From positions 1 to 64,000 of the forward strand of contig JAVHLY010000004.1 of the NCBI GenBank assembly GCA_031081585.1: a stretch of DNA of 64,000 nucleotides, read 5' to 3'. The position numbers were made by a program, and so were the translations under genes. Each line of letters starts with the position of its first letter. The stretch's first letter is position 1. The notes under the pieces are model-generated. The model made no database searches. It saw nothing but the letters and a program-made list of their open reading frames with translations, and was not told the origin of the DNA. This DNA comes from Armatimonadota bacterium (GTDB lineage Bacteria > Sysuimicrobiota > Sysuimicrobiia > Sysuimicrobiales > Humicultoraceae). Below, piece after piece: positions 3,483 through 57,984 of the stretch.

Positions 3483-3491
3483 GGCGTCCCG

Positions 3492-3497
3492 ATTGTA
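3492..3497 (-). promoter_or_regulatory. possible -10 element of a leaderless acyl-CoA dehydrogenase mRNA
   Basis: On the minus strand TACAAT ends 9 bases before the ATG at 3482. Transcription would then start at or very near the start codon, which fits the missing Shine-Dalgarno. No good -35 hexamer is visible. The rest of the 198-base divergent gap up to 3680 is GC-rich, with short inverted repeats around 3515-3537 and no recognisable gene. Confidence 0.35.
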
Positions 3498-3680
3498 CCA
3501 TCCGGGACGGGCGGACCGGCCCGGGCCGGCGGCCGGAGCGCTGTTCAAGGGACGCTTCCCGGGCACGGCGAACTCCTGCTCCAGGACCCCGTCAGGTGCG
3601 ACGTCCTTGAGGAGCCCGGCCGGGACCGGCAGGCGAGCGGCCGCCGAGGGTCGGTGTGCGGGGATGGCAGGGGGGCGCGG

Positions 3681-4850
3681 ATGAAGGGCCTGGTCGTGGA
3701 AGCGCGCTGGGAGCCCCGCGAGGGCTACGTCCCCAGCGCCTGGGAGGTGGAGACGCGCACGGCCATCACCGGCAGCAGCGTCTGGCGCCACCCGCGGGCG
3801 GTGCTGCGGGAGGTGCACGATCCCGTCCCCGGACCGAAGGACGTGGTCATCCGCCCGCGGGCCTGCGGCGTCTGCGGCTCCGACGTGCACTTCATCGAGA
3901 CGGACGCTCAGGGTTACATGCTCTACCCCGGGCTGACCCGCTTCCCCGTGGTCATCGGCCACGAGTTCTCCGGGGAGGTCGTCGAGGTGGGCAGCGAGGT
4001 GCGCGACCTCGCCCCCGGCGACCTGGTGACCTGCGAGGAGATGATCTGGTGCGGGGAGTGCACCTCCTGCCGCAACTCCTCCCCCAACCAGTGCGAGCGG
4101 CTGGAGGAGATCGGCTTCACCATCCCCGGCGCGCAGGCCGAGTACGTGACCGTGGGGGCCAAGTACTGCTGGAAGATCAACGCGCTGGCCGAGGCCTACG
4201 GCGACCGGGAGCGGGCCTTCGAGGCCGGGGCGCTGTGCGAGCCCGCCAGCGTGGCCTACAACGCCATGTTCACCCGCGCGGGGGGCTTCCGGCCGGGCGG
4301 GTACGTGGCCGTCTTCGGCACCGGCCCCATCGGCTTCGCCGCCATCGCCCTGGCCCGCGCGGCGGGGGCGGGGCGCATCGTGGCCTTCGAGGTCTCGCCG
4401 CTGCGCCAGGAGCTGGCGCGGCGGGTGGGCGCGGACGAGGTCTACGACCCGGTGGCGCTGGAGCGGGCGGGTCTGCGGCCGCGCGACGTCCTCCGCGAGG
4501 CCACGCGCGGGGAGGGAGCCGACATGCTGGTGGAGGCCGCCGGCGCCATGGCCCGCACCGTCCCGGAGATGGAGGCGTCGCTGGCCATCGGCGGCAAGGT
4601 GGTGATCATCGGCCGGGCGGCGGAGCGGGCGCCGATTTACCTGGAACACTTCCAGACGCGCGCCGCCCAGGTCTTCGGGGCGCAGGGGCACTCGGGGTAC
4701 GGGAACTTCCCCTACGTCATCCGGCTGATGGCGGCGCGCCGCATCGACCTCACGCCCATCATCACGAGCCGCTTCCCCCTGGCGCAGGCGGAGGCGGCGC
4801 TGGCCCGGGCGATGCGGCGCGAGGACGGCAAGGTGATGATCCGCGCCTGA
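3681..4850 (+). CDS. iolM: scyllo-inosose 3-dehydrogenase-like zinc alcohol dehydrogenase
   Basis: Medium-chain zinc-dependent dehydrogenase of 389 aa. Catalytic-zinc ligands are Cys65 (GVCGSD) and His94-Glu95 (GHEFSG); the structural zinc would use Cys124, 127, 130 and 138. The NAD(P) fold begins at VFGTGPIGFAA. Against my memory of Thermotoga maritima TM0412 (IolM) the match is unusually close: SSVWRHP, GYMLYPGLTRFPV, EEMIWCGEC, AEYVTVGAKYCW and AQGHSGYGNFPYVI all have near-identical counterparts. IolM oxidises scyllo-inosose to a diketo-inositol. The gene is followed by a sugar ABC importer and inositol-type enzymes. The Shine-Dalgarno is weak (GGCAGGGGGG). An L-threonine or polyol dehydrogenase role is the alternative. 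Confidence 0.8.
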   Translation: MKGLVVEARWEPREGYVPSAWEVETRTAITGSSVWRHPRAVLREVHDPVPGPKDVVIRPRACGVCGSDVHFIETDAQGYMLYPGLTRFPVVIGHEFSGEVVEVGSEVRDLAPGDLVTCEEMIWCGECTSCRNSSPNQCERLEEIGFTIPGAQAEYVTVGAKYCWKINALAEAYGDRERAFEAGALCEPASVAYNAMFTRAGGFRPGGYVAVFGTGPIGFAAIALARAAGAGRIVAFEVSPLRQELARRVGADEVYDPVALERAGLRPRDVLREATRGEGADMLVEAAGAMARTVPEMEASLAIGGKVVIIGRAAERAPIYLEHFQTRAAQVFGAQGHSGYGNFPYVIRLMAARRIDLTPIITSRFPLAQAEAALARAMRREDGKVMIRA

Positions 4851-4864
4851 AGGCCTCAGCGACG

Positions 4865-4929
4865 AGGAGGGAGGTGAGAGCGTCATCGAGACCTGAGGCA
4901 GCGATTCCCCCAGGAGGGAGGCGAGCTCG
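4865..4929 (+). repeat. duplicated Shine-Dalgarno-like segment before the binding-protein gene
   Basis: AGGAGGGAGG plus the following bases occurs at 4865-4882 and again at 4912-4929 (15 of 18 identical). The second copy is the real ribosome-binding site for the ATG at 4930, spaced 8 bases. The first would place a GTG (4874) at the head of a 19-codon mini-ORF whose TGA (4931-4933) overlaps that ATG, but its spacing is too short to look functional. It probably arose by local duplication. Confidence 0.4.
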
Positions 4930-5901
4930 ATGAGGCGTTGGGGGATAGTCGCGATCGTGGTCGCGGTGGTCGTGGCGGGCAGCGCCTACGGGATTCGCCT
5001 GGCCGCCGCGCCGCAACAGCTGACATTCTACGTCATCGCCCACACGGGGCCGGGCGACCCCTTCTGGGCGGTCGTCCAGCGCGGCGTGCAGGATGCCGGG
5101 AGGATGCTGGGCGTGCGCGCTATCTTCCAGGGACCACCCCAGCGGGACATCCCGGCCCAGGTGAACATGGCCCGGGCGGCGATCAGTGCCAGGGCCTCCG
5201 GGATCGCCATCTCCGTGAGCGACCCTCCCGCGATCGGCCAGGTCATCCGCGACGCGCGCCGGCGGGGGATCCCGGTGGTCGCCATCAACGTGAAGGAGCC
5301 GGCCGACTACAAGGGCGAGCCGATTCCCTACATGGCCTACATCGGCATGGACGAGTACGAGGCGGGCAAGAACGTCGCCCGGTTCGTGCTGCCCAAGATC
5401 CCCCAGGGCGCGACCGTGCTGATCGCCATGCACGAACCGGGGCACGTCGGTCTGGAGGCGCGGGCCCGCGGCATCCGCGAGGTCCTCACGGCGGAGCGCC
5501 AGGCCAAGGTGGAGGTCCTGGACACCACCCAGGACCCGACCAAGGCACTGGCGACCATGCGCGCGTTCCTCAAGGCCAACCCGAACACCAAAGCCCTGTT
5601 CACGCTCGGCCCCCTGGGCGCCATTCCGGCGATCCGGATGATCCGGGAGGACCGCCTGGGCGGGAAGATCGTCATGGCCTCGTTTGACCTGGATGCCACT
5701 ACCATCCAGGCCATCAAGGAGGGTCTGGTCGAAGCCACCGTCGACCAGCAGCAGTACCTGCAGGGGTTCATCTCGGTGGTCCAGCTCTACCTCTACAGCA
5801 AGTACGGCCTGCAGCCGGCGGACTACAACACGGGGCGCGGCCTCGTGACGAAGGCGACGGCGGCTGCGGTGGAGTCGCTGGTCAAGCAAGGGTACAGGTG
5901 A
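4930..5901 (+). CDS. sugar ABC transporter periplasmic-type binding protein (RbsB/IbpA family)
   Basis: Extracytoplasmic solute receptor of a ribose/inositol-type ABC importer, 323 aa. The N-terminal segment MRRWGIVAIVVAVVVAGSAY plus Ala-rich residues forms a signal peptide or uncleaved anchor; there is no lipobox Cys. The body follows the two-lobe type-1 periplasmic binding fold, with opening strand FYVIAHTGPGDPFWAVVQRG, DPPAIGQVIRDARRRGIP and a closing lobe with TKALFTLGPLGAI and MASFDLDATTIQAI. Start and ribosome-binding site are excellent (AGGAGGGAGG, 8-base spacing). It lies 79 bases after the IolM-like gene and overlaps the permease by four bases, so cyclitols such as myo-inositol are the favoured ligand by context; ribose-like sugars are possible. 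Confidence 0.85.
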   Translation: MRRWGIVAIVVAVVVAGSAYGIRLAAAPQQLTFYVIAHTGPGDPFWAVVQRGVQDAGRMLGVRAIFQGPPQRDIPAQVNMARAAISARASGIAISVSDPPAIGQVIRDARRRGIPVVAINVKEPADYKGEPIPYMAYIGMDEYEAGKNVARFVLPKIPQGATVLIAMHEPGHVGLEARARGIREVLTAERQAKVEVLDTTQDPTKALATMRAFLKANPNTKALFTLGPLGAIPAIRMIREDRLGGKIVMASFDLDATTIQAIKEGLVEATVDQQQYLQGFISVVQLYLYSKYGLQPADYNTGRGLVTKATAAAVESLVKQGYR

Positions 5902-6980
5902 GCGATGCCCGGGGTGGGCCCGTCCCACCCCGGGCGGGGTCGGCCGGGGTGATGGAGAGGCGGGCGACGTCGGGAGGGTCCGAGGTGCCGGCGGTCCGGG
6001 CGATGCCCGTGCCGCGCGTCGAGTGGCGGCGGCTGTTCGCCATGCGCGAGCTGGGCGTGCTGGTCGCCCTCCTGGCGCTCGTGGCGGTCTTCAGCCTGCT
6101 CCAGCCGGCGTTCCTCACCCTCGACACCTTCGGGGACATCCTCACCCAGGCGGCGGAACTGGGCGTGGCCGCCGTCGGCGTGACCTTCCTGATGATTGCC
6201 GGGGAGTTCGACCTCTCCGTGGGGTCGAACTTCGCCTTCACCGGGGTGGTGCTGGCGCTCCTGGTGACGCGAGCGGCCCTGCCCGCGGCCTTCGCGGTCC
6301 TGCTGGCCCTCCTGGTGGCGGCCACCATCGGGCTCCTCAACGGAGTGGTGACCCTGGCGACGCGGATCCCGTCGTTCATCACCACGCTCGGGACGATGAT
6401 GCTGTGGCGCGGCCTGGCGCTGGCCATCACGGGGGGATGGCCTATCAGCATCCTCACCGCCTCGACGCTCCTGGAGGTCCTGGGCGGTAAGGTCATCTGG
6501 AGCACCCTGCGTATCTCTGCGGTGTGGCTGCTCGTGGTCACGGTGGCGTTTTGGTTCCTCCTGGGCAAGACCCGCTACGGCAACTGGGTCTTTGCCACCG
6601 GCGGGAAGCGGGAAGCCGCCCGGGCCCTGGGCGTGCCGGTTCGCCGGGTGAAGCTGATCAACTTCACGCTGGCCGGGGTGCTGGCAGGCGCGGCAGGATT
6701 CCTGCAGTTCGGCCGGATGCGGTCGATGTCCCCCGTGTGGGGAGATGCGCTGGCGCTGGAGGCGATTGCGGCCGCGGTCATCGGGGGGACGTCCCTGATG
6801 GGCGGATCCGGGACGATCCTGGGGACCGTCCTCGGCGCCGTCACGATGGCGGCCATCCGGGTAGGGCTCGTCATGGTGGGTGCTCCGTCGTACTGGTATA
6901 CCGCCTTCCTGGGCGTCGTCGTCGTGCTCGCCGTCATCCTGAACGTCACGTTCGAGGAGCTGGTCAGATGGCGGCGGTAA
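5898..6980 (+). CDS. sugar ABC transporter permease (RbsC family)
   Basis: Integral membrane permease of 360 aa (BPD_transp_2 family), expected to form the homodimeric channel of the importer. About 45 polar residues precede the first membrane span (LGVLVALLALVAVFSLLQ). The family signature FLMIAGEFDLSVGS is near residue 100, and the C-terminal part shows AAAVIGGTSLMGGSGTILGT, both typical of ribose-type permeases. GTG 5898 overlaps the preceding stop (GTGA). ATG 5952 (residue 19) is an alternative start that trims a low-complexity N-terminus. It overlaps the ATPase gene by 13 bases, implying coupled translation. Confidence 0.88.
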   Translation: MSDARGGPVPPRAGSAGVMERRATSGGSEVPAVRAMPVPRVEWRRLFAMRELGVLVALLALVAVFSLLQPAFLTLDTFGDILTQAAELGVAAVGVTFLMIAGEFDLSVGSNFAFTGVVLALLVTRAALPAAFAVLLALLVAATIGLLNGVVTLATRIPSFITTLGTMMLWRGLALAITGGWPISILTASTLLEVLGGKVIWSTLRISAVWLLVVTVAFWFLLGKTRYGNWVFATGGKREAARALGVPVRRVKLINFTLAGVLAGAAGFLQFGRMRSMSPVWGDALALEAIAAAVIGGTSLMGGSGTILGTVLGAVTMAAIRVGLVMVGAPSYWYTAFLGVVVVLAVILNVTFEELVRWRR

Positions 6981-7747
6981 CCTCTCCCCCGCATCCCCTG
7001 CTGGAAGCCCGCGGGATTGCCAAGGCCTTTGGCCACATCCAGGCCCTGGCGGGGGTCGACTTCCACGTGGGCTACCGGGAGGTCGTGGGATTGGTCGGCG
7101 ACAACGGCGCGGGGAAGTCGACGCTGATCAAGATCCTCACCGGCGTGTACCCGCCGGATGCGGGGCAGCTGTTCTTCGAGGGGCGGCCGATCACGCTGGC
7201 GTCCCCCCAGGACGCCCGGGCACTGGGGATCGAGACCGTCTACCAGGACCTCGCCCTGGTGGAGCAGATGAGCATCGCCCGCAACTTCTTCCTCGGCCGT
7301 GAGCCCGTGCACCGGATCGGGCCCCTCACCGTGCTGGACACCGGCACGATGCACCGGGTGACCGAGCGGGTGTTGCGGGAGATCGGCATCACCACCCTGC
7401 GGTCGTCCGCGCAGGACGTGGGCGTGCTCTCGGGCGGTGAACGCCAGGCCATCGCCATCGGCCGAACGATGCACTTTGGGGCCAGGCTCATCATCCTGGA
7501 CGAGCCCACCTCCGCGCTGTCCGTGAAGGAGACCCAGAAGGTGCTGGACTACATCGAGGAGGCCCGGCGGCGCGGCCTCTCGGTGATCTTCATCACCCAC
7601 AACCTCTACCACGTCTATCCGGTGTCCGACCGGATCGTGGTGCTGGACCACGGGCGCAAGGTGGGAGATTTCCGACGCCAGGAGGTCTCCATCGAGGACC
7701 TGGTCGCGTTGATTACCCTCCCAGGCGCGGCGTCCGCCCGTGCGTGA
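6968..7747 (+). CDS. sugar ABC transporter ATP-binding protein, single cassette
   Basis: Cytoplasmic ATPase of 259 aa energising the adjacent permease. Walker A is GDNGAGKST, the signature LSGGERQAIAIGR, Walker B LIILDEPTSAL and the switch His lies in FITHN. RbsA- or MglA-type proteins of this transporter class normally carry two cassettes in about 500 aa; this one has only one, as in FrcA-like systems, so it must act as a homodimer. The ATG at 6968 lies inside the permease gene and is preceded by GAGGAG with 8-base spacing. It overlaps the next isomerase gene by 8 bases. Confidence 0.88.
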   Translation: MAAVTSPPHPLLEARGIAKAFGHIQALAGVDFHVGYREVVGLVGDNGAGKSTLIKILTGVYPPDAGQLFFEGRPITLASPQDARALGIETVYQDLALVEQMSIARNFFLGREPVHRIGPLTVLDTGTMHRVTERVLREIGITTLRSSAQDVGVLSGGERQAIAIGRTMHFGARLIILDEPTSALSVKETQKVLDYIEEARRRGLSVIFITHNLYHVYPVSDRIVVLDHGRKVGDFRRQEVSIEDLVALITLPGAASARA

Positions 7748-8552
7748 CCGCCCCGCGGGGGCGCTCTGCCCGTGCCTGGACGCCCTGTGTGCCGGCCTGC
7801 CCGCCGAGTCGGCGCTGGCCTTTCTGGCGGAGGAGGGGTTCCGCGCCGTGGAGTTCTGGGACTGGCGCGGGCGGGACATCGACCGGCTGGCCCGCCAGGC
7901 CGGTGCGCTCGGGCTGGAGGTGGTGGCCATCAGCGGCACGACCTTCGAGGAGCCCCTGCTCGACCCCGCCGGCCACGAGGCGGCCCTGGCCCACCTGCGC
8001 CGGTCGCTGGAGGTGGCGGAGCGCCTGGGGACGCGGCTGCTGGTGGTGCACGTGGGGTACGCTCAGTCCCACCGGTCTCGCGCCTCCCAGTGGGAGGCGG
8101 CGGTGACGGGCTTGCGGCGGGCCGCCGAGCTGGCCCGGGCGGCCGGGGTCACGCTCCTCGTGGAGCCGCTGAACTCCCTCGTGGACCATCCGGCCTACTT
8201 CCTGGACACGCTCCCCGATGCCCTGGCGATGCTGGAGGCCGTCGACCACCCGGCGGTCGGGCTGCTGCTCGATGTCTACCACATGTGGATCATGCACGAC
8301 GACCTGCTGCACCGGCTGGAGGGGGTAGTTCGTCGGACGGCACACGTGCACGTCGCCGATGTGCCCGGGCGGGGCGAGCCGGGCAGCGGGGTGATCCCCT
8401 GGCGCGAGATGCTCCGGCGTCTGGAGGACGGCGGCTACCGCGGGGCCCTGGGCCTGGAGTGCTGGCCCACGGGCTCGCTGGTCGCGGCGCTGCGCCGGGC
8501 CCGTCAGGTGCTCGAACCGCGCGACGGCCGGGCCATGGGGGCGTGGCGGTGA
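7740..8552 (+). CDS. Hyi-like sugar isomerase/epimerase (TIM barrel)
   Basis: Cytoplasmic 270-aa enzyme of the xylose-isomerase-like TIM-barrel superfamily. Metal/active-site elements expected for hydroxypyruvate-isomerase-like proteins are present: Glu in LVEPLNSLVDHP, Asp-His in GLLLDVYHMWIM, His in HVHVADVPGRGEPG and a late Glu in GLECWP. These enzymes interconvert keto and aldo or epimeric forms of sugars and keto-acids. GTG 7740 is translationally coupled to the ATPase, and its end overlaps the IolI-like gene. The exact substrate is unknown; a cyclitol or keto-acid intermediate is inferred from neighbours. It differs clearly from the better Hyi match at 24062. Confidence 0.75.
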   Translation: MRDRPAGALCPCLDALCAGLPAESALAFLAEEGFRAVEFWDWRGRDIDRLARQAGALGLEVVAISGTTFEEPLLDPAGHEAALAHLRRSLEVAERLGTRLLVVHVGYAQSHRSRASQWEAAVTGLRRAAELARAAGVTLLVEPLNSLVDHPAYFLDTLPDALAMLEAVDHPAVGLLLDVYHMWIMHDDLLHRLEGVVRRTAHVHVADVPGRGEPGSGVIPWREMLRRLEDGGYRGALGLECWPTGSLVAALRRARQVLEPRDGRAMGAWR

Positions 8553-9421
8553 ACCGCTTCGCCCTGAACAGCGCCACCACCGGGCCCGCCGACCTCCTCA
8601 CCGACCTGCGCGTGGCGGCCGCGGCCGGCTTTGGTGCGCTGGAGCTGCGCGACACCAAGCTCGAGGCCTACCTGGCCGGAGGCGGCACCCTGGACGCCCT
8701 GGCGGAGGCCTTCCGCGCGGCCGGCGTGCGGCCGCTCAGCGTGAACGCGCTCGAGCGGGCCACCCTCGTCACCGGGGCGGCCCGTCGCGCCGTGCTGGGG
8801 CGGTGCGCCACGCTGTGCGCCTGGGCCGCCGCGCTGGGAGCGCCCTACGTCGTGGCCGTGCCCGGCCCGCGGGCCGAGGCGGCCGGGGTGGGCGAGGTGG
8901 CCCCGCTGACCGTGGAGATGCTGCGGGCGCTCGCGGCCGTGGCCGCCGAGCACGGCGTGCAGCTGGCCTTCGAGTTCCTCGGCCCGGCCACGAGCTCGGT
9001 GCGCACGCTGGCGGAGGCGCGGACGGTGGTGGAGGCGGTGGGCGACCCGCCGGTGGGGCTGGTGCTGGACGCCTTCCACTTCCACGTCGGCGGCTCCACC
9101 CTGGAGATGCTGGACGGCCTCGACCCGGGGCGCCTGGCCATCGTCCACCTGGACGACGCCGAGGATCGGCCGCGCGAGCGGCTGGAGGACGCGCACCGGC
9201 TCCTGCCGGGAGAGGGGGTGATCCCCCTGCGGCCGCTGGTGGCGCGCCTGGAGGCGCTGGGCTACCGCGGCGCCTACTCGGTCGAACTCTTCCGGCCGGC
9301 ATACTGGACCTGGGACCCGCTGCGCCTGGCGCGCGCGGCGCGCGCCTCGCTGGAGGCGCTCTTCGCCGGACGGGAGCCCGGCGTGGCGGGGCATCCGCAG
9401 AGAGGTGCGCCGTCGCCGTGA
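8549..9421 (+). CDS. iolI: 2-keto-myo-inositol (inosose) isomerase-like protein
   Basis: TIM-barrel isomerase of 290 aa that closely resembles Bacillus subtilis IolI as I remember it. Shared landmarks are the N-terminal NSATT (IolI NEATT), SVNALE, APYVVAVPGP, LAFEFLG, GLVLDAFHFHVGGS, VHLDDAED and YSVELFRPAYW. These include the expected metal ligands Glu, Asp, His and Glu. IolI interconverts 2-keto-myo-inositol and 1-keto-D-chiro-inositol, allowing other inositol isomers to enter the route. GTG 8549 overlaps the previous stop by four bases. The last 20 residues are an unusual Gly/Pro/Ala-rich tail. This is one of the strongest single indications that the locus handles inositols. Confidence 0.8.
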   Translation: MNRFALNSATTGPADLLTDLRVAAAAGFGALELRDTKLEAYLAGGGTLDALAEAFRAAGVRPLSVNALERATLVTGAARRAVLGRCATLCAWAAALGAPYVVAVPGPRAEAAGVGEVAPLTVEMLRALAAVAAEHGVQLAFEFLGPATSSVRTLAEARTVVEAVGDPPVGLVLDAFHFHVGGSTLEMLDGLDPGRLAIVHLDDAEDRPRERLEDAHRLLPGEGVIPLRPLVARLEALGYRGAYSVELFRPAYWTWDPLRLARAARASLEALFAGREPGVAGHPQRGAPSP

Positions 9422-9449
9422 ACCGACGGCAGGGAGGTGGGGCGTCGAC

Positions 9450-10496
9450 GTGAGCGTGCGGGTGGGCATCCTGGGTGCGGGGTTCATCGGGCGCATCCAC
9501 GCCCTCGACCTCAGGCGCGATCCGCGCGTCACGCTGGTGGGGGTGGCGGACGTCGTCCCGCAGGCCGCCACCCGGCTGGCCGCGGAGGTGGAGACCGCCG
9601 CCTGCGCCTCGCTGGCCGAGCTGCTGGACCGCGGCGCCGAGGCGGTCTACGTCTGCACGCCCAACGTCCAGCACGTCGAGCCCGTGGTGACGGCCCTTCG
9701 CGCCGGGGTGCACGTCTTCAGCGAGAAGCCCATGGCCACGTCCCTGGCCGACGCCTGGACGATCCGCGAGGCGGCGCGCCGCTCCCGGGCGGTCTACCAG
9801 CTCGGCTTCAACCGCCGCTTCGCCCGCGTCTACCGCTTCGTGCGCCGCCTCATCGACGAGGGGCGCCTCCACCCGGTGCTGGGACAGCTCAAGCACAACC
9901 GCGGGGAGCTGCAGCAGCCGCCCTGGACGGGCGACCCGGCGGTGACCGGCGGCTACCTGTACGAGACGCCGGTGCACCTCTTCGACATGGCCCGCTTCCT
10001 CCTGGGCGACGTCGCCGACGTCCAGGGGGTGGCCCGCCAGACCGTCTACCGGGAGCTGGACGGCTTCGTCCTGCTCTTCCGCTTCCGCAACGGGGCCGCC
10101 GCCAGCGTGACCTCGGTGGCGCACACCTCCTGGTTCTTCCCCTACGAGCGGGTGGAGCTGTACGGTCCGCACCAGACGGCGGTCACGGAGGAGCTGGAGC
10201 GCGCCTGGTTCAGCCCGGGGGTCCGCGAACAGGTCGAGGGCATCGACTGCTTCCAGATGCCCTTCGAGGAGAAGTGGGGCTACGTGGAGGAAGACCGCTG
10301 CTTCATCGACGCGGTGCTGGGCGAGGCTCCGCCGCCCGTCACCGCGGAGGACGGCTACCGGGCCACCGAGCTGGTGGAGGCCGTCTACCGGGCGGTGCGC
10401 ACGGGACAGCCCGTCACGCTGCCGCTCCCCGAGCCCGGTGGCTCCCCTGCACCGGCAGAACCCGGCGAGACGGGCTCGGGCCGCCGACCGGTGTGA
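9450..10496 (+). CDS. Gfo/Idh/MocA oxidoreductase, candidate inositol 2-dehydrogenase
   Basis: NAD(P)-dependent sugar/cyclitol dehydrogenase of 348 aa. The Rossmann motif VGILGAGFIGRIHA opens the protein, and SEKPMA carries the conserved Lys93. In inositol dehydrogenases Lys, Asp and His four residues further form the active site; here the sequence YETPVHLFD gives Glu172 and His176, a conservative Asp-to-Glu change. The C-terminal domain follows GFNRRFARVY. GTG 9450 is chosen because AGGGAGG (9431-9437) sits upstream; a frame-open start at 9405 would add 15 unlikely residues. Context suggests the IolG step (myo-inositol to scyllo-inosose), but the family is very promiscuous. Confidence 0.8.
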   Translation: MSVRVGILGAGFIGRIHALDLRRDPRVTLVGVADVVPQAATRLAAEVETAACASLAELLDRGAEAVYVCTPNVQHVEPVVTALRAGVHVFSEKPMATSLADAWTIREAARRSRAVYQLGFNRRFARVYRFVRRLIDEGRLHPVLGQLKHNRGELQQPPWTGDPAVTGGYLYETPVHLFDMARFLLGDVADVQGVARQTVYRELDGFVLLFRFRNGAAASVTSVAHTSWFFPYERVELYGPHQTAVTEELERAWFSPGVREQVEGIDCFQMPFEEKWGYVEEDRCFIDAVLGEAPPPVTAEDGYRATELVEAVYRAVRTGQPVTLPLPEPGGSPAPAEPGETGSGRRPV

Positions 10497-10506
10497 CCGC
10501 GCGCCC

Positions 10507-11331
10507 ATGACCACCCCCGGCCCGATCCGCCTCATTGTCACCGACATCGACGGGACGCTCACGACGACGGCGCAGGAGATCACGCCCCGCGTGCGGCAGG
10601 CGGTGGCGGCGGCACGGGCGCGCGGCGTGCCCACCTGTGTGGCCACCGGCCGGGCCTGGCGCTCCGGTCGCCGCTACATCGAGGCCCTCCCTGCCGACCC
10701 CCCGGCCATCCTCTTCAACGGCGGGATGGTCTACGACTTCAGCCGGGACCGCGTGCTCTTCCGGCAGGGGATGGACCCCGAGCTGGCGCTGGTGGTGGTC
10801 GAGGCCCTCGACGCCCACCCCGACCTGGCCGCCCACCTCTACGTGGGCGACCGGATCTACGTGCGTCGGTGGACGCCGCTCGTGGCCGCCACCGCCCTCC
10901 ACGACCACCTCGACCCCGAAGCGGTGGGCGACCTGCGCACCGTCCTCCCCCGCGACCGCGCCGCGCCGATCATGAAGTTCCGCATCCTGGGCCCGCGGGA
11001 GGAGCTGGAGGCCCTGGCCGAGGCGCTCGGACGGACAGACCCCGTGAACTACGTCTTCTCCGAGACCACGTCCCTGGAAGTGCTCCCGCCGGGCGTCTCC
11101 AAGGGGACGGCGCTGCGGGTGGTGGCGGAGCACCTGGGGGTGGACCTGGAGGCGGTGATGGCGGTGGGGGACGAATGGAACGACCTGACGATGCTCCAGG
11201 CGGCCGGATGGGGCGTGGCCATGGCGGACGCGCCCGAGCCGGTGCGCCGGGCTGCCCGCGTGGTGGCGCCGACGAGCGACGCCGACGGACTGGCAGTGGT
11301 GATCGAGCGGTACGTCCTGGACGGCCGCTGA
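10507..11331 (+). CDS. HAD-superfamily Cof-type sugar phosphatase
   Basis: Cytoplasmic 274-aa phosphohydrolase of the Cof/YidA group. Motif I is VTDIDGTLTT with nucleophile and acid/base Asp. Motif II lies near VATGRAW, the motif III Lys in PPGVSKGTAL, and motif IV in VGDEWNDLTML binds Mg. The cap domain (about residues 85-195) sets substrate choice. Such enzymes dephosphorylate sugar phosphates or related small molecules. It sits between inositol-type enzymes and an FbpA-like importer, so removing phosphate from an imported phosphorylated sugar or cyclitol is plausible. ATG 10507 is 10 bases after the previous stop with no clear Shine-Dalgarno. Confidence 0.83.
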   Translation: MTTPGPIRLIVTDIDGTLTTTAQEITPRVRQAVAAARARGVPTCVATGRAWRSGRRYIEALPADPPAILFNGGMVYDFSRDRVLFRQGMDPELALVVVEALDAHPDLAAHLYVGDRIYVRRWTPLVAATALHDHLDPEAVGDLRTVLPRDRAAPIMKFRILGPREELEALAEALGRTDPVNYVFSETTSLEVLPPGVSKGTALRVVAEHLGVDLEAVMAVGDEWNDLTMLQAAGWGVAMADAPEPVRRAARVVAPTSDADGLAVVIERYVLDGR

Positions 11332-11368
11332 GCGGGACAGACGTGTGCACACCAGGGAGGGGAGAGGG

Positions 11369-12397
11369 ATGGGCAGGACGGCTGTGATCGGCCTGATCGT
11401 GATGCTGGCGGCGCTCGCGCTCCCGGGACTCCCCGGCGCGAGCGCCCAGGGCGGGCGCATCGTGGTCTACTCGGCGCTGCCGGACCTGGAGACCTCGCTG
11501 ATCAACCGGGAGTTCACCCGCCGCACCGGGATCCAGGTGGAGGCGCTCAGCGTCGCCGCGGCGGGGACCCTCCAGGCGCGCATCCGGGCGGAGAAGGACC
11601 GGCCGCGCGCCGACATCTTCGTGGGCGGGTCGGCCGACTTCCACGCCCCGCTGGCGCGGGAGGGGCTCCTGCTGGCCTACCGGTCGCCGGTCTTCACCGA
11701 GGCGCGCATCAGCCCCACCTACCGCGACCCCAACGGGTACTGGCACGGCTGGTACCTGGGGGCGCTGGCCATCATCATCAACACCGACCGCTGGGAGCGG
11801 GAGATGGCCCCGCGGCGCATCCCCAAGCCGGCCACCTGGGACGACCTGGCCCGGCCGGAGTTCCGGGGTCAGTTCATCATGCCGAGCCCCATCACCACCG
11901 GGGGCGGCTACATCTTCGTGGCGGCGCAGATCTTCCGCCTGGGGGAGGAGCGGGCCTGGGCCTTCCTGCGCACCCTCAACGGCAACGTGGCCCAGTACAC
12001 GCCCACGGCCCCCGGGACGATCACCCTGCTGGAGCGCGGTGAGGCCGTCGTGGGGATGATGTGGGCGCACGAGGGGATCGGCGCGCGCATCCTGCGCAGC
12101 GCCCCGCTGGAGGTGACGGTGCCGCCGGACACCGCCTTCGAGATCGGTGCCGTCTCCATCCTGCGCGGCGGGCCCAACCCGGCCGGCGCCCGCGCGTACG
12201 TGGACTTCCTGCTGACGCGCCTGCCGCAGGACATCAACGCCAAGTTCGGCTTCCGCTACCCCGTGCGCGGCGACGTGCCGGTGCCGCTGGGCGCCACGCC
12301 CTTCGAGCAGCTGAAGTTCGTCCGCTACGACCGCGACTGGGCGGTGGAGCACCAGGCGCGCATCCGCGAGCGGTGGACCCGCGAGATCGGTCGCTGA
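11369..12397 (+). CDS. FbpA-type ABC transporter substrate-binding protein
   Basis: Secreted receptor of 342 aa. The signal peptide (about residues 1-26) ends GASAQ. The mature protein starts GRIVVYSALPDLETSLINREF, the usual opening of FbpA/AfuA-type proteins, followed by RADIFVGGSADF, GWYLGALAIIINTDRW, PATWDDLARPEFRGQ and NGNVAQYTPTAPG. The family binds ferric iron in some members and sugar phosphates, putrescine or phosphonates in others. No obvious tyrosine cluster for Fe3+ is visible to me. It heads a binding protein-permease-ATPase operon beside a sugar phosphatase and inositol genes, so an organic ligand is favoured. The ribosome-binding site GGGAGGGGAGAGGG precedes ATG 11369. Confidence 0.82.
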   Translation: MGRTAVIGLIVMLAALALPGLPGASAQGGRIVVYSALPDLETSLINREFTRRTGIQVEALSVAAAGTLQARIRAEKDRPRADIFVGGSADFHAPLAREGLLLAYRSPVFTEARISPTYRDPNGYWHGWYLGALAIIINTDRWEREMAPRRIPKPATWDDLARPEFRGQFIMPSPITTGGGYIFVAAQIFRLGEERAWAFLRTLNGNVAQYTPTAPGTITLLERGEAVVGMMWAHEGIGARILRSAPLEVTVPPDTAFEIGAVSILRGGPNPAGARAYVDFLLTRLPQDINAKFGFRYPVRGDVPVPLGATPFEQLKFVRYDRDWAVEHQARIRERWTREIGR

Positions 12398-12407
12398 GCA
12401 GGAACCG

Positions 12408-14045
12408 GTGAGGGCCGGGGCGGTCGCGCTGGAGTGGCGGAGGCTCCGCCGGCACGCCGACCCCGGCCTGCTGGCCGTCTACACGGGGGCGCTGCTCCTC
12501 CTGGCCCTGGCCGTCCTCTACCCGGCCTACCGGGTGCTGGTCTACCCGTCGTGGGCGGACTACCTGGCCATCCCCCGCAGCCTGCGCTGGCTGCAGGCCG
12601 CCCGCAACAGCCTGGTGATGATGGTCCTCTCCACGGCCAGCGCCACGCTGGTGGGGGTGCTCTTCGCCTTCGCCACCACCCGCCATGACCTGCCGGGCCG
12701 GCGCCTCTTCCGGGCCGCGGCGATGCTGCCGCTCTTCGCGCCGCCCTTCATGGTGGCGTTCGCCTACATCCTCATGTTCGGCCGGCAGGGGCTGGTCACG
12801 CGCACGCTGCTCGGGCTCGACGCCAACATTTTCGGCTGGCACGGCCTGTGGCTGGTGCAGACGGTGGCCTTCTTCCCGCTGGCGATGCTCATCATCGCCG
12901 GCGTGCTCGAGGCCATCAACCCGAGCCTGGAGCACGCGGCGCGGAACCTGGGCGCCCCCGAAGGGGCGGTCCTGCGCACGGTCACCCTGGCCCTGGCCCG
13001 CCCGGGGATCGCCGGGGCGATGCTGGTGGTGGCCATCTCGGTGCTGGCCGACTTCGGCAACGCGGTGATCATCGCCGGCAACTTCCCCCTGCTGGCCACC
13101 GAGGCGTGGTTCCGCATGGAGGGGATGGGGGACCTGACCGGGGCGGCGCTGGTCGTGGGGATGCTGCTCGTGCCCACCGTCCTCCTCTTCCTCCTGGAGC
13201 GCTTCTGGGTGAGCCGCCGCGTCTACGTGACGGTCACGGGCCGGGGCTCGCGCATCGAGCGGCCGCCCACCCCGCCGGCCGTCCGCTGGGCGGTCCTCCT
13301 GGCCTGCCTGCTGGTGACGGTGCTCGTGGCGCTCGTCTACCTGGGGGTGCTGGCCGGCGCCTTCACGGCGGTGTGGGGGCGCGACTGGTCCCTCACCCTG
13401 GAGCACTGGCACCTGGCCCGCGACCGGGCGGGGACGCTGTGGGCCAGCGTACGCGTGGGGACGCTCGCCGGCGTCGTCACCGCCGTGACCGGGGTGCTGG
13501 TGGCCTTCCTGGCCACGCGCCCGCTGCCGCTGCGCGGGGTCCTCGACTTCCTGGCGGTCCTGCCCGGGGCGCTCCCCGGCGTCTTCGTCGGCGTGGGCTA
13601 CGTCCTGGCCTTCAACCCCACGCCGCTCGGCGGCACGGTCTGGGCGGTGGCGCTGGCGCTGGGGATGTGGCACCTGCCCATGGGCTACCAGGCCGCCGCA
13701 GCGCGGCTGCGCCAGGTGGAGCGGGCCATCGAGGAGGCGGCGGTGAACCTGGGGGCCACGGGGCTGCGCGTGCTGCGGGACATCTACCTGCCCATGCTCC
13801 TGCGCGCGCTGGCGGAGGCGTTCGCCGTCTCCTTCGTGCGGGGGGTGACCAACGTGAGCATCGTGGTCTTCCTCATCGCCCCGGGGCAGGTTGTGGCCAC
13901 CTTCGCCATCCTCAACATGATCCAGAACAACATCTGGGGCGCGGCGGCGGCGCTCACCACCATGCTCCTCCTCCTCACCGTCGTGGCCGTGGGGGCGAGT
14001 TGGCTCCTGCTGGGGCGGGCCGTGCGCACCGCGCCGGTGGGATGA
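12408..14045 (+). CDS. FbpB-type ABC permease (fused two-domain)
   Basis: Integral membrane protein of 545 aa with two tandem BPD_transp_1 permease units, so one chain can form the whole channel. An EAA loop of the first half lies around EAINPSLEHAARNLGA and that of the second around ERAIEEAAVNLGATGLRVL. Membrane spans are dense throughout (for example GALLLLALAVLYPAYRVLV and AVLLACLLVTVLVALVYLGVL). GTG 12408 lies 10 bases after the binding-protein stop, and the gene overlaps the ATPase start (ATGA). This architecture is typical of FbpB, AfuB and PhnU-like permeases. Confidence 0.88.
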   Translation: MRAGAVALEWRRLRRHADPGLLAVYTGALLLLALAVLYPAYRVLVYPSWADYLAIPRSLRWLQAARNSLVMMVLSTASATLVGVLFAFATTRHDLPGRRLFRAAAMLPLFAPPFMVAFAYILMFGRQGLVTRTLLGLDANIFGWHGLWLVQTVAFFPLAMLIIAGVLEAINPSLEHAARNLGAPEGAVLRTVTLALARPGIAGAMLVVAISVLADFGNAVIIAGNFPLLATEAWFRMEGMGDLTGAALVVGMLLVPTVLLFLLERFWVSRRVYVTVTGRGSRIERPPTPPAVRWAVLLACLLVTVLVALVYLGVLAGAFTAVWGRDWSLTLEHWHLARDRAGTLWASVRVGTLAGVVTAVTGVLVAFLATRPLPLRGVLDFLAVLPGALPGVFVGVGYVLAFNPTPLGGTVWAVALALGMWHLPMGYQAAAARLRQVERAIEEAAVNLGATGLRVLRDIYLPMLLRALAEAFAVSFVRGVTNVSIVVFLIAPGQVVATFAILNMIQNNIWGAAAALTTMLLLLTVVAVGASWLLLGRAVRTAPVG

Positions 14046-15241
14046 GGGTGCCCGAGCCGACCGTGACCGGGCGCACGCCGGCGACCGACCCGGGCTCGTT
14101 GACCGACCGGACCGCGGGGCCCCCGCACCTCCGGCTGGTGGAGGTGACGAAGCGCTTCGGGGCGCACGTGGCGGTGGACCGGGTCTCCCTGGCGCTGCCC
14201 GAGGGCGCCTTCACCACGCTCCTGGGCCCGTCCGGCTGCGGCAAGACCACCGTCCTGCGCCTGGTGGCGGGGTTCTACCGACCGGACAGCGGGGAGATCC
14301 TGCTGCGTGAGCGCCCCATCACCGACGTGCCGCCGCACCGCCGCCACATGGCGATGGTCTTCCAGGAGTACGCCCTCTTCCCCCACCTGACGGTCGGGGA
14401 GAACGTCGCCTACGGCCTGCGTATGCGCCGGGTGCCGCCGCGGGAGACGGCGCGGCGGGTGGCGGAGGCGCTGCGCCTGGTGGGGCTGGAGGGGCAGGAG
14501 CGGCGCTTCCCCCACCAGCTCTCGGGCGGGCAGCAGCAGCGGGTGGCGCTGGCGCGCGCGCTGGTCGTGGAGCCGGAGGTGCTGCTGCTGGACGAGCCGC
14601 TCAGCAACCTGGACGCCAAGCTGCGCGTGCGGGTGCGCACGGAGATCCGCCAGCTGCAGGAGCGGCTGGGCAAGACCACGCTGTACGTCACCCACGACCA
14701 GGAGGAGGCGCTGGCCATCTCCGACCAGATCGCCGTGATGCACGCGGGGCGGATCCTGCAGGTGGGCACCCCCACGGAGATTTACTTCCGGCCGCAGAAC
14801 CGCATCGTGGCCGACTTCGTGGGACTGGCCACCTTCGTGGAGGCCGAGGTCGCGGGGTCGGGACGGGTGCGCGTGCACGGCGTCGTCGTCCCTGTGACCG
14901 GCCCGCTGCCGCCGACGGGACGGGTGACCCTGGTGGTCCGGCCCGAGGCGGTCCGGCTGACGCCCGCTCGTAGCGGGGGCGAAGACGGCGGCGGGCTGCG
15001 GGGCCGCGTCGTGGCCCGGGCCTTCCTCGGCGGAGTGGTGCGCTGCTGGGTGGACGTGCACGGCGCGGAGTGGGTGGTGGACGTGCCGGTGGACCAGGAG
15101 GTGCCCGTCGATGGGGTGGTGGCGCTGCGGTTGGGGGAGCGCGTCCACGCCCTCCCGGAGGGGCCGGCGGGGAGCGCCGCGGAAGGTCCGGCGGGGAGCG
15201 GCGAGGGGCCGGCGCGGGACCGTGCAGGCCCCACAATGTAA
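14042..15241 (+). CDS. FbpC/PotA-type ABC ATPase
   Basis: ATPase of 399 aa driving the upstream permease. The nucleotide-binding domain has Walker A GPSGCGKTT, Q-loop VFQEYALFPHLTV, signature LSGGQQQRVALARAL, Walker B VLLLDEPLSNLDAKL and switch VTHDQEEAL. A C-terminal TOBE-like regulatory domain covers about residues 260-370. The last 30 residues are low complexity, with imperfect repeats of EGPAGS coded by GC-rich tandem repeats at about 15156-15225. ATG 14042 overlaps the permease stop, indicating coupling. Confidence 0.88.
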   Translation: MRVPEPTVTGRTPATDPGSLTDRTAGPPHLRLVEVTKRFGAHVAVDRVSLALPEGAFTTLLGPSGCGKTTVLRLVAGFYRPDSGEILLRERPITDVPPHRRHMAMVFQEYALFPHLTVGENVAYGLRMRRVPPRETARRVAEALRLVGLEGQERRFPHQLSGGQQQRVALARALVVEPEVLLLDEPLSNLDAKLRVRVRTEIRQLQERLGKTTLYVTHDQEEALAISDQIAVMHAGRILQVGTPTEIYFRPQNRIVADFVGLATFVEAEVAGSGRVRVHGVVVPVTGPLPPTGRVTLVVRPEAVRLTPARSGGEDGGGLRGRVVARAFLGGVVRCWVDVHGAEWVVDVPVDQEVPVDGVVALRLGERVHALPEGPAGSAAEGPAGSGEGPARDRAGPTM

Positions 15242-15335
15242 GCCGCGAGACGGCGTCTACACCGTCAGCCGCAAGACGCCGTCAGCCGCAAGGCGCCGTC
15301 GGTCGCGAGACGGCGTCAGCCGCGCGACGGCGTAC
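15242..15335 (+). repeat. 17-bp tandem repeat array with palindromic cores
   Basis: Five degenerate units fill most of the 128-base gap after the ATPase gene: 15242-15258, 15268-15284, 15285-15301, 15302-15318 and 15319-15335. The consensus is GCCGCRAGACGSCGTCA, and the last four are head to tail. Each contains a near-palindrome GACG-S-CGTC, so the RNA could form several alternative small hairpins. Spacers and direct-repeat/CRISPR organisation are absent. It may be an intercistronic RNA-stability element or a simple slippage product. The IolN-like gene's strong ribosome-binding site follows at 15356-15365. Confidence 0.65.
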
Positions 15336-15369
15336 TCGGGCAATCGGACGGGCGAGAAGGAGGAGGCAC

Positions 15370-16335
15370 ATGGGCAAGTGGGACCTGCCGCCCCGAGGCG
15401 GCCACATGGACAAGCGCACCGGGATCTACCTGCAGACCATGACCCAGCGCGACATCGAGGAGCGCCTGGCCACCAACGACGTCCTCATCGTGCCGCTGGG
15501 CGCCACCGAGGCGCACGGCCCCAACGCGCCCATCGGCGAGGACATCTTCCTCGTCTGCCGCATGGCCGAGGTGGTGGCGGAGCGCACCGGGTGCACCGTC
15601 TCCGAGCCGCTGTGGTTCGGTTCTCACCCCTACCACCACCTGGGCATGCCCGGGACCGTGCCCATCCCCGAGGACGTCTTCACCGCCTTCGTGCGGGCGA
15701 TGATCGCCGGCTTCTGGAACATGGGCTTCCGCAAGCAGATCCTGCTCAACGGCCACGGGCAGGAGTACGTCATCCCCACGGCGATCCACCAGTTTGGCAA
15801 GCGCTACCGGGTCCCGGCGCTGATCGTGAACGTGAACTGGTACCATGCCATCCCGGACCACTTTCGCCTCAAGCAGGACGGAGGGCCCTACGAGACCCCC
15901 TTCATCCACGCCGACGAGGTGGAGACCTCCTGGTGCCTGGCGCTCTTCCCCGAGCTGATGAAGCAGGAGTGGGTCGTGGACAACGAACCCTTCGGCTTCC
16001 TCCCGGAAGGCCACGTGGACAAGGCCGGGAACCTCCTGCGCCGGCCGATCAACTGGTACGGGCACGTGGGGGCGGGCCCCATCGAGGTGAAGGCCTACAT
16101 CGAGGGCGTCGTGGGGAAGCCCTCCCTGGCGGCGGCGGAGAAGGCGCTGCCGGGCGTGGAGGCGCTGCTCGACTACCTGGAACGCCTCGTCACCGACATC
16201 CTGGCCCGCTTCCCGCCCGGGGAGCTGCCCCCCATCGACCTGGTGACCGAGCGCGACCGGGAGGAACTGGAGGCGGTGCTGCGCGGGCCGGCCCGCGGGG
16301 GCAAGTCCATTTACGCGCTGGGCTGGCCGCCGTGA
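15370..16335 (+). CDS. iolN: creatininase-superfamily hydrolase, candidate 3-dehydro-scyllo-inosose hydrolase
   Basis: Metal-dependent hydrolase of 321 aa. Creatininase-fold landmarks are PLGATEAHGPNAPIGED (Glu, His, Asp ligands, near residue 45), HPYHHLGMPGT, NGHGQEYVIP and HADEVETSWCLALFP (late Glu). To my recollection Thermotoga IolN (TM0413), which opens the diketo-inositol ring to 5-keto-L-gluconate, belongs to this superfamily. The gene next door is a close IolO match, which strongly favours that role over creatinine or formamide hydrolysis. ATG 15370 follows an AAGGAGGAGG ribosome-binding site. It is about 10% longer than simple creatininases, with a C-terminal helical extension. Confidence 0.72.
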   Translation: MGKWDLPPRGGHMDKRTGIYLQTMTQRDIEERLATNDVLIVPLGATEAHGPNAPIGEDIFLVCRMAEVVAERTGCTVSEPLWFGSHPYHHLGMPGTVPIPEDVFTAFVRAMIAGFWNMGFRKQILLNGHGQEYVIPTAIHQFGKRYRVPALIVNVNWYHAIPDHFRLKQDGGPYETPFIHADEVETSWCLALFPELMKQEWVVDNEPFGFLPEGHVDKAGNLLRRPINWYGHVGAGPIEVKAYIEGVVGKPSLAAAEKALPGVEALLDYLERLVTDILARFPPGELPPIDLVTERDREELEAVLRGPARGGKSIYALGWPP

Positions 16336-16348
16336 CGCCCCGGCCGCC

Positions 16349-17182
16349 GTGCGCGTGAGCCTGGTCGTCTCCCTGGAGGCCACCGCGTTCGATGCGGTGG
16401 CGATGCGCCAGGGGCTGGGGGCCCTGGAGGCGGTGGCGGCGCTGGGCTACGACGGGGCGGAGCTGGCCGTGCGCGACCCGCAGGCGGTCGACGGCGGGTG
16501 GCTGCGCGACCGCTGCGCGCAGTTGGGGCTGGCCGTCCCCGCACTCGGCACCGGGCAGGCCTACCTGCGCGACGGCCTGGCGCTGGCCCACCCGGAGGCA
16601 GGCATCCGCCGGGCGGCCATCGAACGCATGCGGCACCACGTCGCCCTGGCCCGGCAGCTGAGCGCGCTCCCGGGGACGCCGGCCGCGGGCGTCCAGGTGA
16701 TCGTCGGGCTGATCCGAGGCCCGGCGGGCCAGGACCGGCCAGGGGCCGAGCGGCGCCTCACCGAGGCGCTCCGGCCCTGCCTGGACGCGGCGGCCGAGGC
16801 CGGGGTGGGGCTGGTGATCGAGGCGATCAACCGCTACGAGAGCGACTGGCTGCACACCCTGGAGGAGGTGGCGGCGCTGGTGGAGCGCGTCGGCCACCCG
16901 CGGCTGGGCGTGCTGGCCGACACCTTCCACATGAACATCGAGGAGCGGTCGATGGACGAGGCCCTGCGCGCCGCCGCGCCCCATCTGCGCCACGTGCACG
17001 TGGCCGACAGCAACCGCCGCGCGCCGGGGCAGGGGCACCTCGACTTCGCGCGGCTGGTGGGCGTCCTGCGCGAGGCCGGCTACGACGGGTTCCTCTCGGC
17101 GGAGATCCTGCCGTGGCCCGACCCGGATGAAGCCGGGCGGCTGGCCATCACCCACCTGCGCGCGGTGCTGGGGCGGCCCTGA
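16349..17182 (+). CDS. iolO: 5-keto-L-gluconate epimerase-like TIM-barrel protein
   Basis: 277-aa TIM-barrel epimerase strikingly like Thermotoga maritima TM0416 (IolO) as I remember it. Shared blocks are AVRDP, GTGQAYLRDGLALAHPE, IGLIRG-type strand, EAINRYESD, GVLADTFHMNIEE and HVHVADSNRRAPGQGHLDF. IolO converts 5-keto-L-gluconate to D-tagaturonate, which then enters uronate catabolism. Metal ligands Glu, Asp, His and Glu are all in place. An insertion of about 8 residues (around LPGTPAAG) distinguishes it. GTG 16349 lies 14 bases after the IolN-like stop. Later steps (tagaturonate reductase and onward) are not in this window. Confidence 0.82.
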   Translation: MRVSLVVSLEATAFDAVAMRQGLGALEAVAALGYDGAELAVRDPQAVDGGWLRDRCAQLGLAVPALGTGQAYLRDGLALAHPEAGIRRAAIERMRHHVALARQLSALPGTPAAGVQVIVGLIRGPAGQDRPGAERRLTEALRPCLDAAAEAGVGLVIEAINRYESDWLHTLEEVAALVERVGHPRLGVLADTFHMNIEERSMDEALRAAAPHLRHVHVADSNRRAPGQGHLDFARLVGVLREAGYDGFLSAEILPWPDPDEAGRLAITHLRAVLGRP

Positions 17183-17236
17183 GGCGCGGGGCGCGGGCGG
17201 CGACGCACGACATCGTCAGGGAGGGAGAGGATGCCC

Positions 17237-18265: not shown

Positions 18266-18268
18266 CGC

Positions 18269-20505: not shown

Positions 20506-20509
<4 letters not shown>
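18269..20509 (+). CDS. afuB: AfuB-like ABC permease with extra N-terminal membrane domain
   Basis: Membrane protein of 746 aa, about 200 longer than ordinary FbpB permeases. The first 250 or so residues hold roughly six extra hydrophobic spans (for example AALVVGLLLPW, LALLAAALAVLVGVAPL, LLLFLAHLTLAGTGLAL). Two BPD_transp_1 units follow, with EAA loops at EEAAETLGASRWQVLRT and EEASTLLGAGTASTLRR. AfuB is also remembered as an enlarged permease. The start is uncertain: TTG 18269 lies 3 bases after the previous stop and lacks a Shine-Dalgarno; GTG 18326 or ATG 18341 are alternatives. The end overlaps the ATPase gene (GTGA). Confidence 0.82.
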
Positions 20510-21609
<1,100 letters not shown>

Positions 21610-21615
21610 CCGATC

Positions 21616-24868: not shown

Positions 24869-24995
24869 GGCCGCGGCCGCGAACCTCTCGACCGCGAACC
24901 CTGTAGTCCGGGCTCGCTGTGCTCCGGAGTCAGCGGCCGGGCCATCCCGGCGCTTCCCGGGCTAAGGCACTTCCCGGGCCAAGGAGGAGGCACAA

Positions 24996-57956: not shown

Positions 57957-57984
57957 GCGTGCGGGGCGTCGGGGAGGGACCGGG

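Follow-up and report, generated by a model that had tools for sequence, protein, structure and literature searches.

A putative hybrid inositol-degradation operon with Thermotoga-type ring-oxidation genes and a kinase-aldolase tail in Sysuimicrobiota

Introduction

The inositol pathway of Thermotoga maritima, encoded by the TM0411-TM0416 operon, was reportedly described by Rodionova and co-workers in 2013, a study cited in PMC5931981 and PMC3750489. The operon has the order IolR-IolM-IolN-IolG-IolK-IolO, and to our knowledge the route has been described from one lineage. The sulfo-Embden-Meyerhof-Parnas (sulfo-EMP) pathway, which is relevant to the comparison made below, consists of the YihV kinase, the YihT aldolase and the YihU reductase. 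Here we describe a gene run at positions 3681-25901 of a 64,000-nucleotide stretch of DNA (C4:1-64000, hereafter the window) from a Sysuimicrobiota genome, in which genes of the Thermotoga inositol type are followed by a kinase, an aldolase, an isomerase and a reductase. The acceptor of the Thermotoga kinase TM0415 is itself uncertain, and D-tagaturonate is among the named candidates (PMC5931981).

The genome is a 2.88 Mb metagenome-assembled genome in 66 contigs with a completeness of 96.5%. Gene families, linkage, conservation and absences are reported as observed, and absences from the genome are outcomes of family searches, within their sensitivity. The neighborhoods of relatives were mapped with tblastn. 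A phylogenetic profile covered 43 genomes of the order, with IolN counted at an identity of at least 73%. The closest IolM sequences (79-81%) came from 'Armatimonadetes bacterium CSP1-3' and a genome of the same family (G004), which places the genome in Candidatus Sysuimicrobiota. The paper on the phylum Candidatus Sysuimicrobiota does not contain the word inositol (PMC11604079).

Results

Ring-oxidation genes of the Thermotoga type

The run comprises 20 same-strand genes separated by gaps of at most 128 bp, with several 4-bp overlaps (Table 1). On balance, we regard it as a hybrid inositol-degradation operon with a Thermotoga-type front and a kinase-aldolase back. The initial annotation had listed iolM, iolI, a possible iolG, iolN and iolO, and all five are real genes on the plus strand at the starts it gave. 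It missed the TIM-barrel gene at 7740-8552 and ended at 17182, before the genes at 17231-25901, which are a second AfuA-type importer, an FGGY kinase, a Cgl0159 aldolase, Hyi and GarR.

IolM scored 554 bits against the NCBIfam equivalog NF041097 (cut-off 450). Its top Protein Data Bank match, with the next family only at E 6e-40, was 3ip1 (E 1.6e-96), which we take to be the T. maritima enzyme and which itself scored 525 bits as IolM. In the tree, the window protein and its relatives grouped with 3ip1 and apart from paralogues such as threonine dehydrogenase (99/99; long branches). IolN was well above its family cut-off. IolO fell 8 bits under the NF041099 cut-off (292 vs 300), yet this was the best family by far, and its top solved match was TM_0416 (2zvr; E 2.5e-57), with the next solved epimerase at E 7e-25. 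Catalytic and metal residues were conserved in all three proteins: the catalytic Cys65, His94 and Glu95 of IolM together with four structural Cys (29 relatives), Glu47, His49, Asp58 and His129 of IolN (30 relatives), and Glu158, Asp191, His217 and Glu252 of IolO (26 relatives) were invariant. The recognition of these three proteins as Thermotoga-type families in the initial annotation is supported, for IolO with a score just under the curated cut-off. Of the trees it proposed, the IolM tree placed the window protein inside the 3ip1 clade, and in the IolO tree the position of TM0416 relative to the window clade was unsettled.

The IolI-like gene, also named earlier, is indeed related to B. subtilis IolI (1i60), an enzyme that in Bacillus acts on inosose isomers. 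For the possible iolG, the iolG family (TIGR04380) topped all NCBIfam families, at 167 bits against a cut-off of 355, and the counterpart in a Caldilineae cluster reached 487 bits. The top Protein Data Bank match was 3ezy (E 5.6e-29). Lys93 and His176 were invariant, as was Glu172 where the catalytic residue of IolG is Asp, so the earlier suggestion holds as best family and falls short in score and catalytic residue.

The front half of the run is very probably a Thermotoga-type ring oxidation in a new phylum. Three genomes also carry a second IolN paralogue (58-63% identity), which lies outside the main cluster and has other dehydrogenase genes in its vicinity (L064, L065 and L066 in G003, G007 and G010). 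The IolN query found only remote creatininases of about 30% identity on plasmids.

Relation to the classical pathway

IolN was present in 26 of the 43 genomes and IolD, above cut-off or split, in seven, and the two never occurred together (0/43; Fisher p = 0.0006, a test that ignores phylogeny and leaves shared ancestry uncorrected). Within the window's own family, IolD was found in G001 and G002 and IolN in seven genomes. This mutual exclusion favors IolM/N/O as the working inositol route. The best match to classical IolD in the genome of the window reached 257 bits against a cut-off of 715, which agrees, for IolD, with the earlier remark that the classical route is not visible. Cgl0159 as a piece of a hidden classical pathway was also considered and dropped, as IolD occurred in none of the 18 genomes bearing Cgl0159.

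An IolB-family isomerase (205.6 bits, cut-off 205) was found beside the IolM/N/O cluster of G041, a genome without IolD (L041/L042, gene at 17954 of the joined stretch).

The kinase-aldolase-Hyi-GarR tail

The kinase, aldolase, Hyi and GarR genes lie downstream of IolO in the same directon, and the kinase-aldolase and aldolase-Hyi pairs overlap by 4 bp each. FGGY genes were also found within the clusters of G041, G028, G029, G033, G025 and G026. IolN and Cgl0159 are both present in 12 genomes, in ten of them within 16 kb of each other, and G009 makes an eleventh linked case by contig continuation. In other genomes the kinase slot is occupied by a protein resembling pyrophosphate-dependent phosphofructokinase (PPi-PFK-like; PRK14072, 503 bits) and the reductase slot by a GhrB-like glyoxylate/hydroxypyruvate reductase (409 bits). 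Unrelated families with the same chemistry at one slot are as expected of a conserved pathway step. An ordinary glycolytic role of the PFK-like kinase was considered as possible, but in seven genomes this gene has either the aldolase or Hyi as its neighbor, which argues otherwise.

In four actinobacterial plasmids the Cgl0159 gene stands directly 3' of iolC, followed in three of them by iolB, iolD or iolA; this context would assign the family to the aldolase step of the classical pathway (IolJ role). For the window aldolase, the predicted fold (pLDDT 71) was nearest to 3fok, then to archaeal fructose-bisphosphate aldolase, ADH synthase with bound dihydroxyacetone phosphate (DHAP), LsrF, LacD and YihT. 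The neighbors of this predicted fold, with LacD and YihT (the sulfofructose-1-phosphate aldolase) among them, are Schiff-base aldolases of the DHAP type.

Hyi also scored above the cut-off for 2-oxo-tetronate isomerase (NF043033, 329 bits vs 325), and GarR matched the sulfolactaldehyde reductase family at 195 bits. A relative of glycerate 2-kinase is encoded on contig C15, outside the cluster. A glyoxylate-carboligase route feeding Hyi and GarR was set aside, as its gene is not in the directon; a genome-wide search for it was not made. The FGGY-Cgl0159-Hyi-GarR set stands alone in G042 (L090, G042:C136:944-5370), and no IolN orthologue was found in that genome. In L006, whose sequence is that of the G041 cluster, a xylose-isomerase-like TIM barrel is fused to a Cgl0159 aldolase (5450-7492) upstream of LacI-iolM.

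The Thermotoga ending

The initial annotation had expected the route to continue from tagaturonate as in Thermotoga. UxaE (PF16257), Mannitol_dh_C (PF08125; UxaB/UxuB-type) and UxuA (PF03786) were undetected in the genome by searches that detected the T. maritima positive control, and the UxaA/altronate dehydratase family was likewise undetected with a positive control. Across the order, UxaE was found in 4 and Mannitol_dh_C in 5 of the 43 genomes. UxaE adjoins a short-chain dehydrogenase/reductase (SDR) gene in G022, G023 and G032, and lies within the IolM cluster at L017, L020, L023 and L028 (Chloroflexota, Acidobacteriota), with an SDR gene as well at L017 and L028. Thermotoga-type tails are present in other lineages and not here.

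The lower part of the ending presents another picture. Contig C10 carries a gene resembling 2-keto-3-deoxygluconate (KDG) kinase (209 bits vs cut-off 400) beside a 2-keto-3-deoxy-6-phosphogluconate (KDPG) aldolase gene (172 bits vs 156), both unlinked to the cluster. It is therefore possible that a KDG tail exists whose reductase and dehydratase escaped recognition. The initial annotation had held that the absence of all downstream tagaturonate enzymes would count against its reading; the canonical upper tail was undetected, and the lower part has these C10 candidates. Since the same directon offers another plausible tail, the ending is altered and the ring-oxidation half is not refuted.

Gene order in Sysuimicrobiota

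The order LacI - IolM - (importer) - IolI - IolG - HAD - ABC - IolN - IolO - (ABC) - tail was found, with variations, in G004, G007, G010, G013, G018, G041, L012 and others, and the HAD phosphatase gene in almost every relative's cluster. The arrangement recurs across Sysuimicrobiota (CSP1-3 relatives) and is therefore no local reshuffle. The description of the genes as reassembled, given in the initial annotation, did not hold, as IolM-IolI-IolG-phosphatase-ABC-IolN-IolO is kept in many genomes of the phylum.

LacI-type regulator genes were observed upstream of iolM in G004, G007, G010, G013, G041, L005 and L012. In the window, no LacI-type gene was called upstream of iolM (3482-3681), where only about 200 bp separate an acyl-CoA dehydrogenase gene from iolM, so a local regulator seems to have been lost. 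When the regions preceding IolM were compared for a common operator, no consistent palindrome emerged. The gap before iolN (15262-15323) contains a 17-bp tandem repeat, CCGTCAGCCGCAAGACG, in 3.6 copies, and another short 17-bp repeat precedes garR (24949-24984); they are possibly regulatory or plain low complexity.

Uptake genes and surroundings

The nearest characterised binding protein of the second substrate-binding protein (SBP2) was AfuA. In AfuA, the triad His205, Asp206 and Glu229 is needed for sugar-phosphate binding (PMC4546632). It corresponds to H229, D230 and E253 of SBP2, which were invariant in 11 relatives. This triad and the conserved HAD phosphatase together point to a putative import of phosphorylated cyclitols or sugars. 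The binding protein of the importer at 4930-7747 appears to be only a relative of the rhizopine-binding family, far under its cut-off.

Table 1. Genes of the run at 3681-25901, with assignments and supporting matches
Feature	Position	Strand	Evidence
IolM, scyllo-inosose 3-dehydrogenase (zinc medium-chain dehydrogenase/reductase, MDR, family)	3681..4850	+	NF041097, PDB 3ip1, tree, conserved residues
Sugar ATP-binding cassette (ABC) substrate-binding protein, rhizopine-binding relative (inosamine-type cyclitol ligands)	4930..5901	+	NF052284 197 bits vs cut-off 420; Peripla_BP_4
Ribose-type (CUT2) permease, same importer as 4930..5901	5952..6980	+	BPD_transp_2
ATPase, single-domain, same importer as 4930..5901	6968..7747	+	ABC_tran; top match sugar importers
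TIM1, xylose-isomerase-like TIM barrel	7740..8552	+	AP_endonuc_2 E 1.3e-49; top NCBIfam hydroxypyruvate isomerase 136 bits vs cut-off 353
IolI-like inosose isomerase	8549..9421	+	PDB 1i60 (B. subtilis IolI) E 5.3e-38, next 2.8e-19
Gfo/Idh/MocA dehydrogenase, candidate IolG-like	9450..10496	+	TIGR04380 iolG 167 bits vs cut-off 355
Cof-type HAD sugar-phosphatase	10507..11331	+	TIGR00099 178 bits vs cut-off 137
SBP1, AfuA/FbpA-type binding protein, importer 1	11345..12397	+	AfuA (4r72) E 3e-36, P5PA (6wce) E 1e-36
Importer 1 permease	12408..14045	+	PhnU2/ModB/CysT families
Importer 1 ATPase	14042..15241	+	PhnT2 382 bits
IolN, 3-dehydro-scyllo-inosose hydrolase (creatininase superfamily), ring opening	15370..16335	+	NF041098 524 bits vs cut-off 245
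IolO, 5-keto-L-gluconate 4-epimerase	16349..17182	+	NF041099 292 bits vs cut-off 300; TM_0416 E 2.5e-57
SBP2, AfuA-type sugar-phosphate-binding protein, importer 2	17231..18265	+	AfuA 4r72 E 9e-67
Importer 2 permease	18269..20509	+	PhnU2/ModB families
Importer 2 ATPase	20506..21609	+	FbpC/PhnT2 family, 394 bits
FGGY carbohydrate kinase, proposed 5-keto-hexonate (D-tagaturonate) 6-kinase	21616..23079	+	FGGY_N/FGGY_C; XylB 333 bits vs cut-off 380
Cgl0159-family class I aldolase, proposed DHAP release	23076..24065	+	PF22649 E 1.3e-80; PDB 3fok E 2.7e-58
Hyi/OtnI, hydroxypyruvate (tartronate semialdehyde) isomerase	24062..24868	+	TIGR03234 348 bits vs cut-off 353; NF043033 329 bits vs 325
GarR, tartronate semialdehyde reductase	24996..25901	+	TIGR01505 380 bits vs cut-off 341

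Beyond the run, the window carries a long exopolysaccharide-type cluster at 27731-54097, with a Poly_export/SLBB protein, a member of the UDP-glucose dehydrogenase family, a Wzx-like flippase and a Polysacc_synt_2 epimerase. A class III CoA-transferase and an acyl-CoA dehydrogenase follow at 56778-60474, then (by eye) a binding-protein-dependent importer.

Discussion

Proposed pathway

The scheme proposed here takes all its substrates, and the whole of its back half, from gene content. The IolG-like dehydrogenase, with IolI interconverting inososes, would supply scyllo-inosose. IolM would convert this to the diketone, IolN would open the ring to 5-keto-L-gluconate, and IolO would epimerise C4 to give D-tagaturonate. 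The FGGY kinase would then phosphorylate C6, which bears the sole primary hydroxyl, in the way that IolC acts on 2-deoxy-5-ketogluconate, and the Cgl0159 aldolase would cleave between C3 and C4. In chemical terms, the only primary hydroxyl of a 5-keto-hexonate adjoins the ketone, so phosphorylation at this site and a C3-C4 retro-aldol reaction should give DHAP and tartronate semialdehyde. The 2-hydroxyl is kept by the IolM/IolN ring opening, and the C3 product should therefore be tartronate semialdehyde instead of the malonate semialdehyde of the classical pathway. Hyi and GarR would convert tartronate semialdehyde to glycerate, and the glycerate 2-kinase encoded elsewhere would return it to glycolysis. 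The AfuA-type importers and the HAD phosphatase may serve the uptake and dephosphorylation of phosphorylated inositols.

That the back half is a previously undescribed route, from a tagaturonate kinase and aldolase to glycerate, appears somewhat more probable than not. The chances are even for a fuller statement. In this, Thermotoga-type ring oxidation is joined to a kinase acting on tagaturonate and a Cgl0159 aldolase that releases DHAP, and unrelated families (FGGY, PPi-PFK-like) have come to occupy the kinase slot on two or more occasions. The pathway would be a carboxylate counterpart of sulfo-EMP, and other 5-keto-hexonates could be substrates of the cassette where it stands alone. We know of no earlier description of a kinase-aldolase ending to inositol breakdown. 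A literature search with most subscription journals outside its reach found neither a tagaturonate kinase nor its phosphate ester named.

Several observations weigh against the hybrid operon. The FGGY kinase matches no equivalog, XylB being nearest (333 bits vs 380), and the IolG assignment is weak, a candidate only. G019-G021 have the PFK-like kinase without the Cgl0159 aldolase, the cluster is devoid of Cgl0159 in most f4 genomes, and G004 has Hyi and GarR in its cluster with no kinase or aldolase there and carries a UxaE-like gene. The lack of Cgl0159 in all 4 genomes with UxaE, which speaks for the hybrid operon, is not significant alone (p = 0.10). The KDG-kinase-like and KDPG aldolase genes on C10, the IolB-family isomerase of G041, which the proposed scheme leaves unaccounted for, an IolB-like gene nearby in G012, and the state of the assembly, with its 66 contigs and 96.5% completeness, count on the same side.

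Alternative explanations

The C10 genes lead to an unlikely alternative, a full Thermotoga-type pathway with a non-orthologous tail. An SDR or MDR reductase and an enolase-superfamily dehydration would give KDG, the C10 proteins would complete the route, and the kinase-aldolase-Hyi-GarR set would handle another substrate of importer 2. An SDR gene lies close to the C10 pair, contig C6 carries an enolase-superfamily gene resembling acid-sugar dehydratases (NF040866 197 bits vs cut-off 650), and related Chloroflexota clusters have UxaE with an SDR D-mannonate oxidoreductase. In Luteolibacter LG18, 5-keto-L-gluconate reaches KDG through tagaturonate, and the enzymes are distant relatives of those known for the same activity (PMC12632266). 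However, the D-mannonate oxidoreductase family was not among the 25 best matches of the C10 and C14 SDRs, the candidate genes are unlinked to the cluster, and the kinase-aldolase module stays with IolN/IolO across genera. This linkage also bears on the improbable case that 21616-25901 is an unrelated co-transcribed cassette whose substrate is a different ketose acid or a sugar-phosphate from importer 2. The stand-alone set of G042, the AfuA triad kept in SBP2 and the 2-oxo-tetronate isomerase score of Hyi would fit such a cassette, but in 11 of the 12 genomes with IolN and Cgl0159 it is linked to IolN/IolO, kinase and reductase are swapped in place, and the genome searches detected no alternative exit for tagaturonate.

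A further alternative concerns the substrate and is compatible with the hybrid operon. Instead of free myo-inositol, a derivative (a scyllo-inosamine/rhizopine-like compound, D-chiro-inositol or an inositol phosphate) might be the main substrate, which we consider doubtful. It would suit the importer at 4930-7747, nearest to the rhizopine-binding family, as well as the divergent IolG with Glu172, the action on inosose isomers known from the IolI family in Bacillus, and the AfuA-type importers with the HAD phosphatase. Related clusters also contain GDPD-like genes and an extra sugar-type ABC importer (families assigned by eye). On the other hand, the rhizopine-binding match reaches 197 of the 420 bits required, and every derivative still passes via inosose, so the core scheme would be the same.

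Significance and comparison with known systems

A cluster conserved at the level of the phylum, with a kinase and an aldolase beside IolN/IolO, leads to the testable prediction that D-tagaturonate is phosphorylated and split to DHAP and tartronate semialdehyde. If true, this would provide a carbon source for an uncultured phylum so far mostly discussed for autotrophy, and would correct annotations as xylulokinase, deoxyribose-phosphate aldolase and iron transporters.

The cluster shares with Thermotoga the IolM and IolN families, probably the IolO family, and an oxidative-hydrolytic ring opening that bypasses IolE/IolD. Unlike Thermotoga, it has its own gene order, IolI, a divergent IolG, ribose-type and AfuA-type importers and a HAD phosphatase, and in place of the UxaE/UxuB/UxuA tail it has kinase-aldolase-Hyi-GarR. 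The L-glucose pathway of Luteolibacter LG18 likewise uses an IolO-like 4-epimerase to convert 5-keto-L-gluconate to D-tagaturonate, whereas it goes on by reduction and dehydration to KDG (PMC12632266).

The classical Bacillus/actinobacterial iol pathway (IolG-IolE-IolD-IolB-IolC-IolJ/Cgl0159-IolA) resembles the cluster in IolI and in a 5-keto-hexonate kinase next to a Cgl0159 aldolase expected to yield DHAP. It differs in that the genome described here lacks IolD, the ring would be opened by IolM/IolN, and the kinase is of the FGGY type in contrast to the PfkB-type IolC. In logic, the proposed tail is like sulfo-EMP, where a ketose acid is phosphorylated beside its ketone, an aldolase releases DHAP and a C3 acid aldehyde, and a beta-hydroxyacid dehydrogenase-type reductase follows. 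The proposed tail differs from it in having a carboxylate for the sulfonate, an FGGY for the PfkB kinase, and Cgl0159 for the YihT sequence family.

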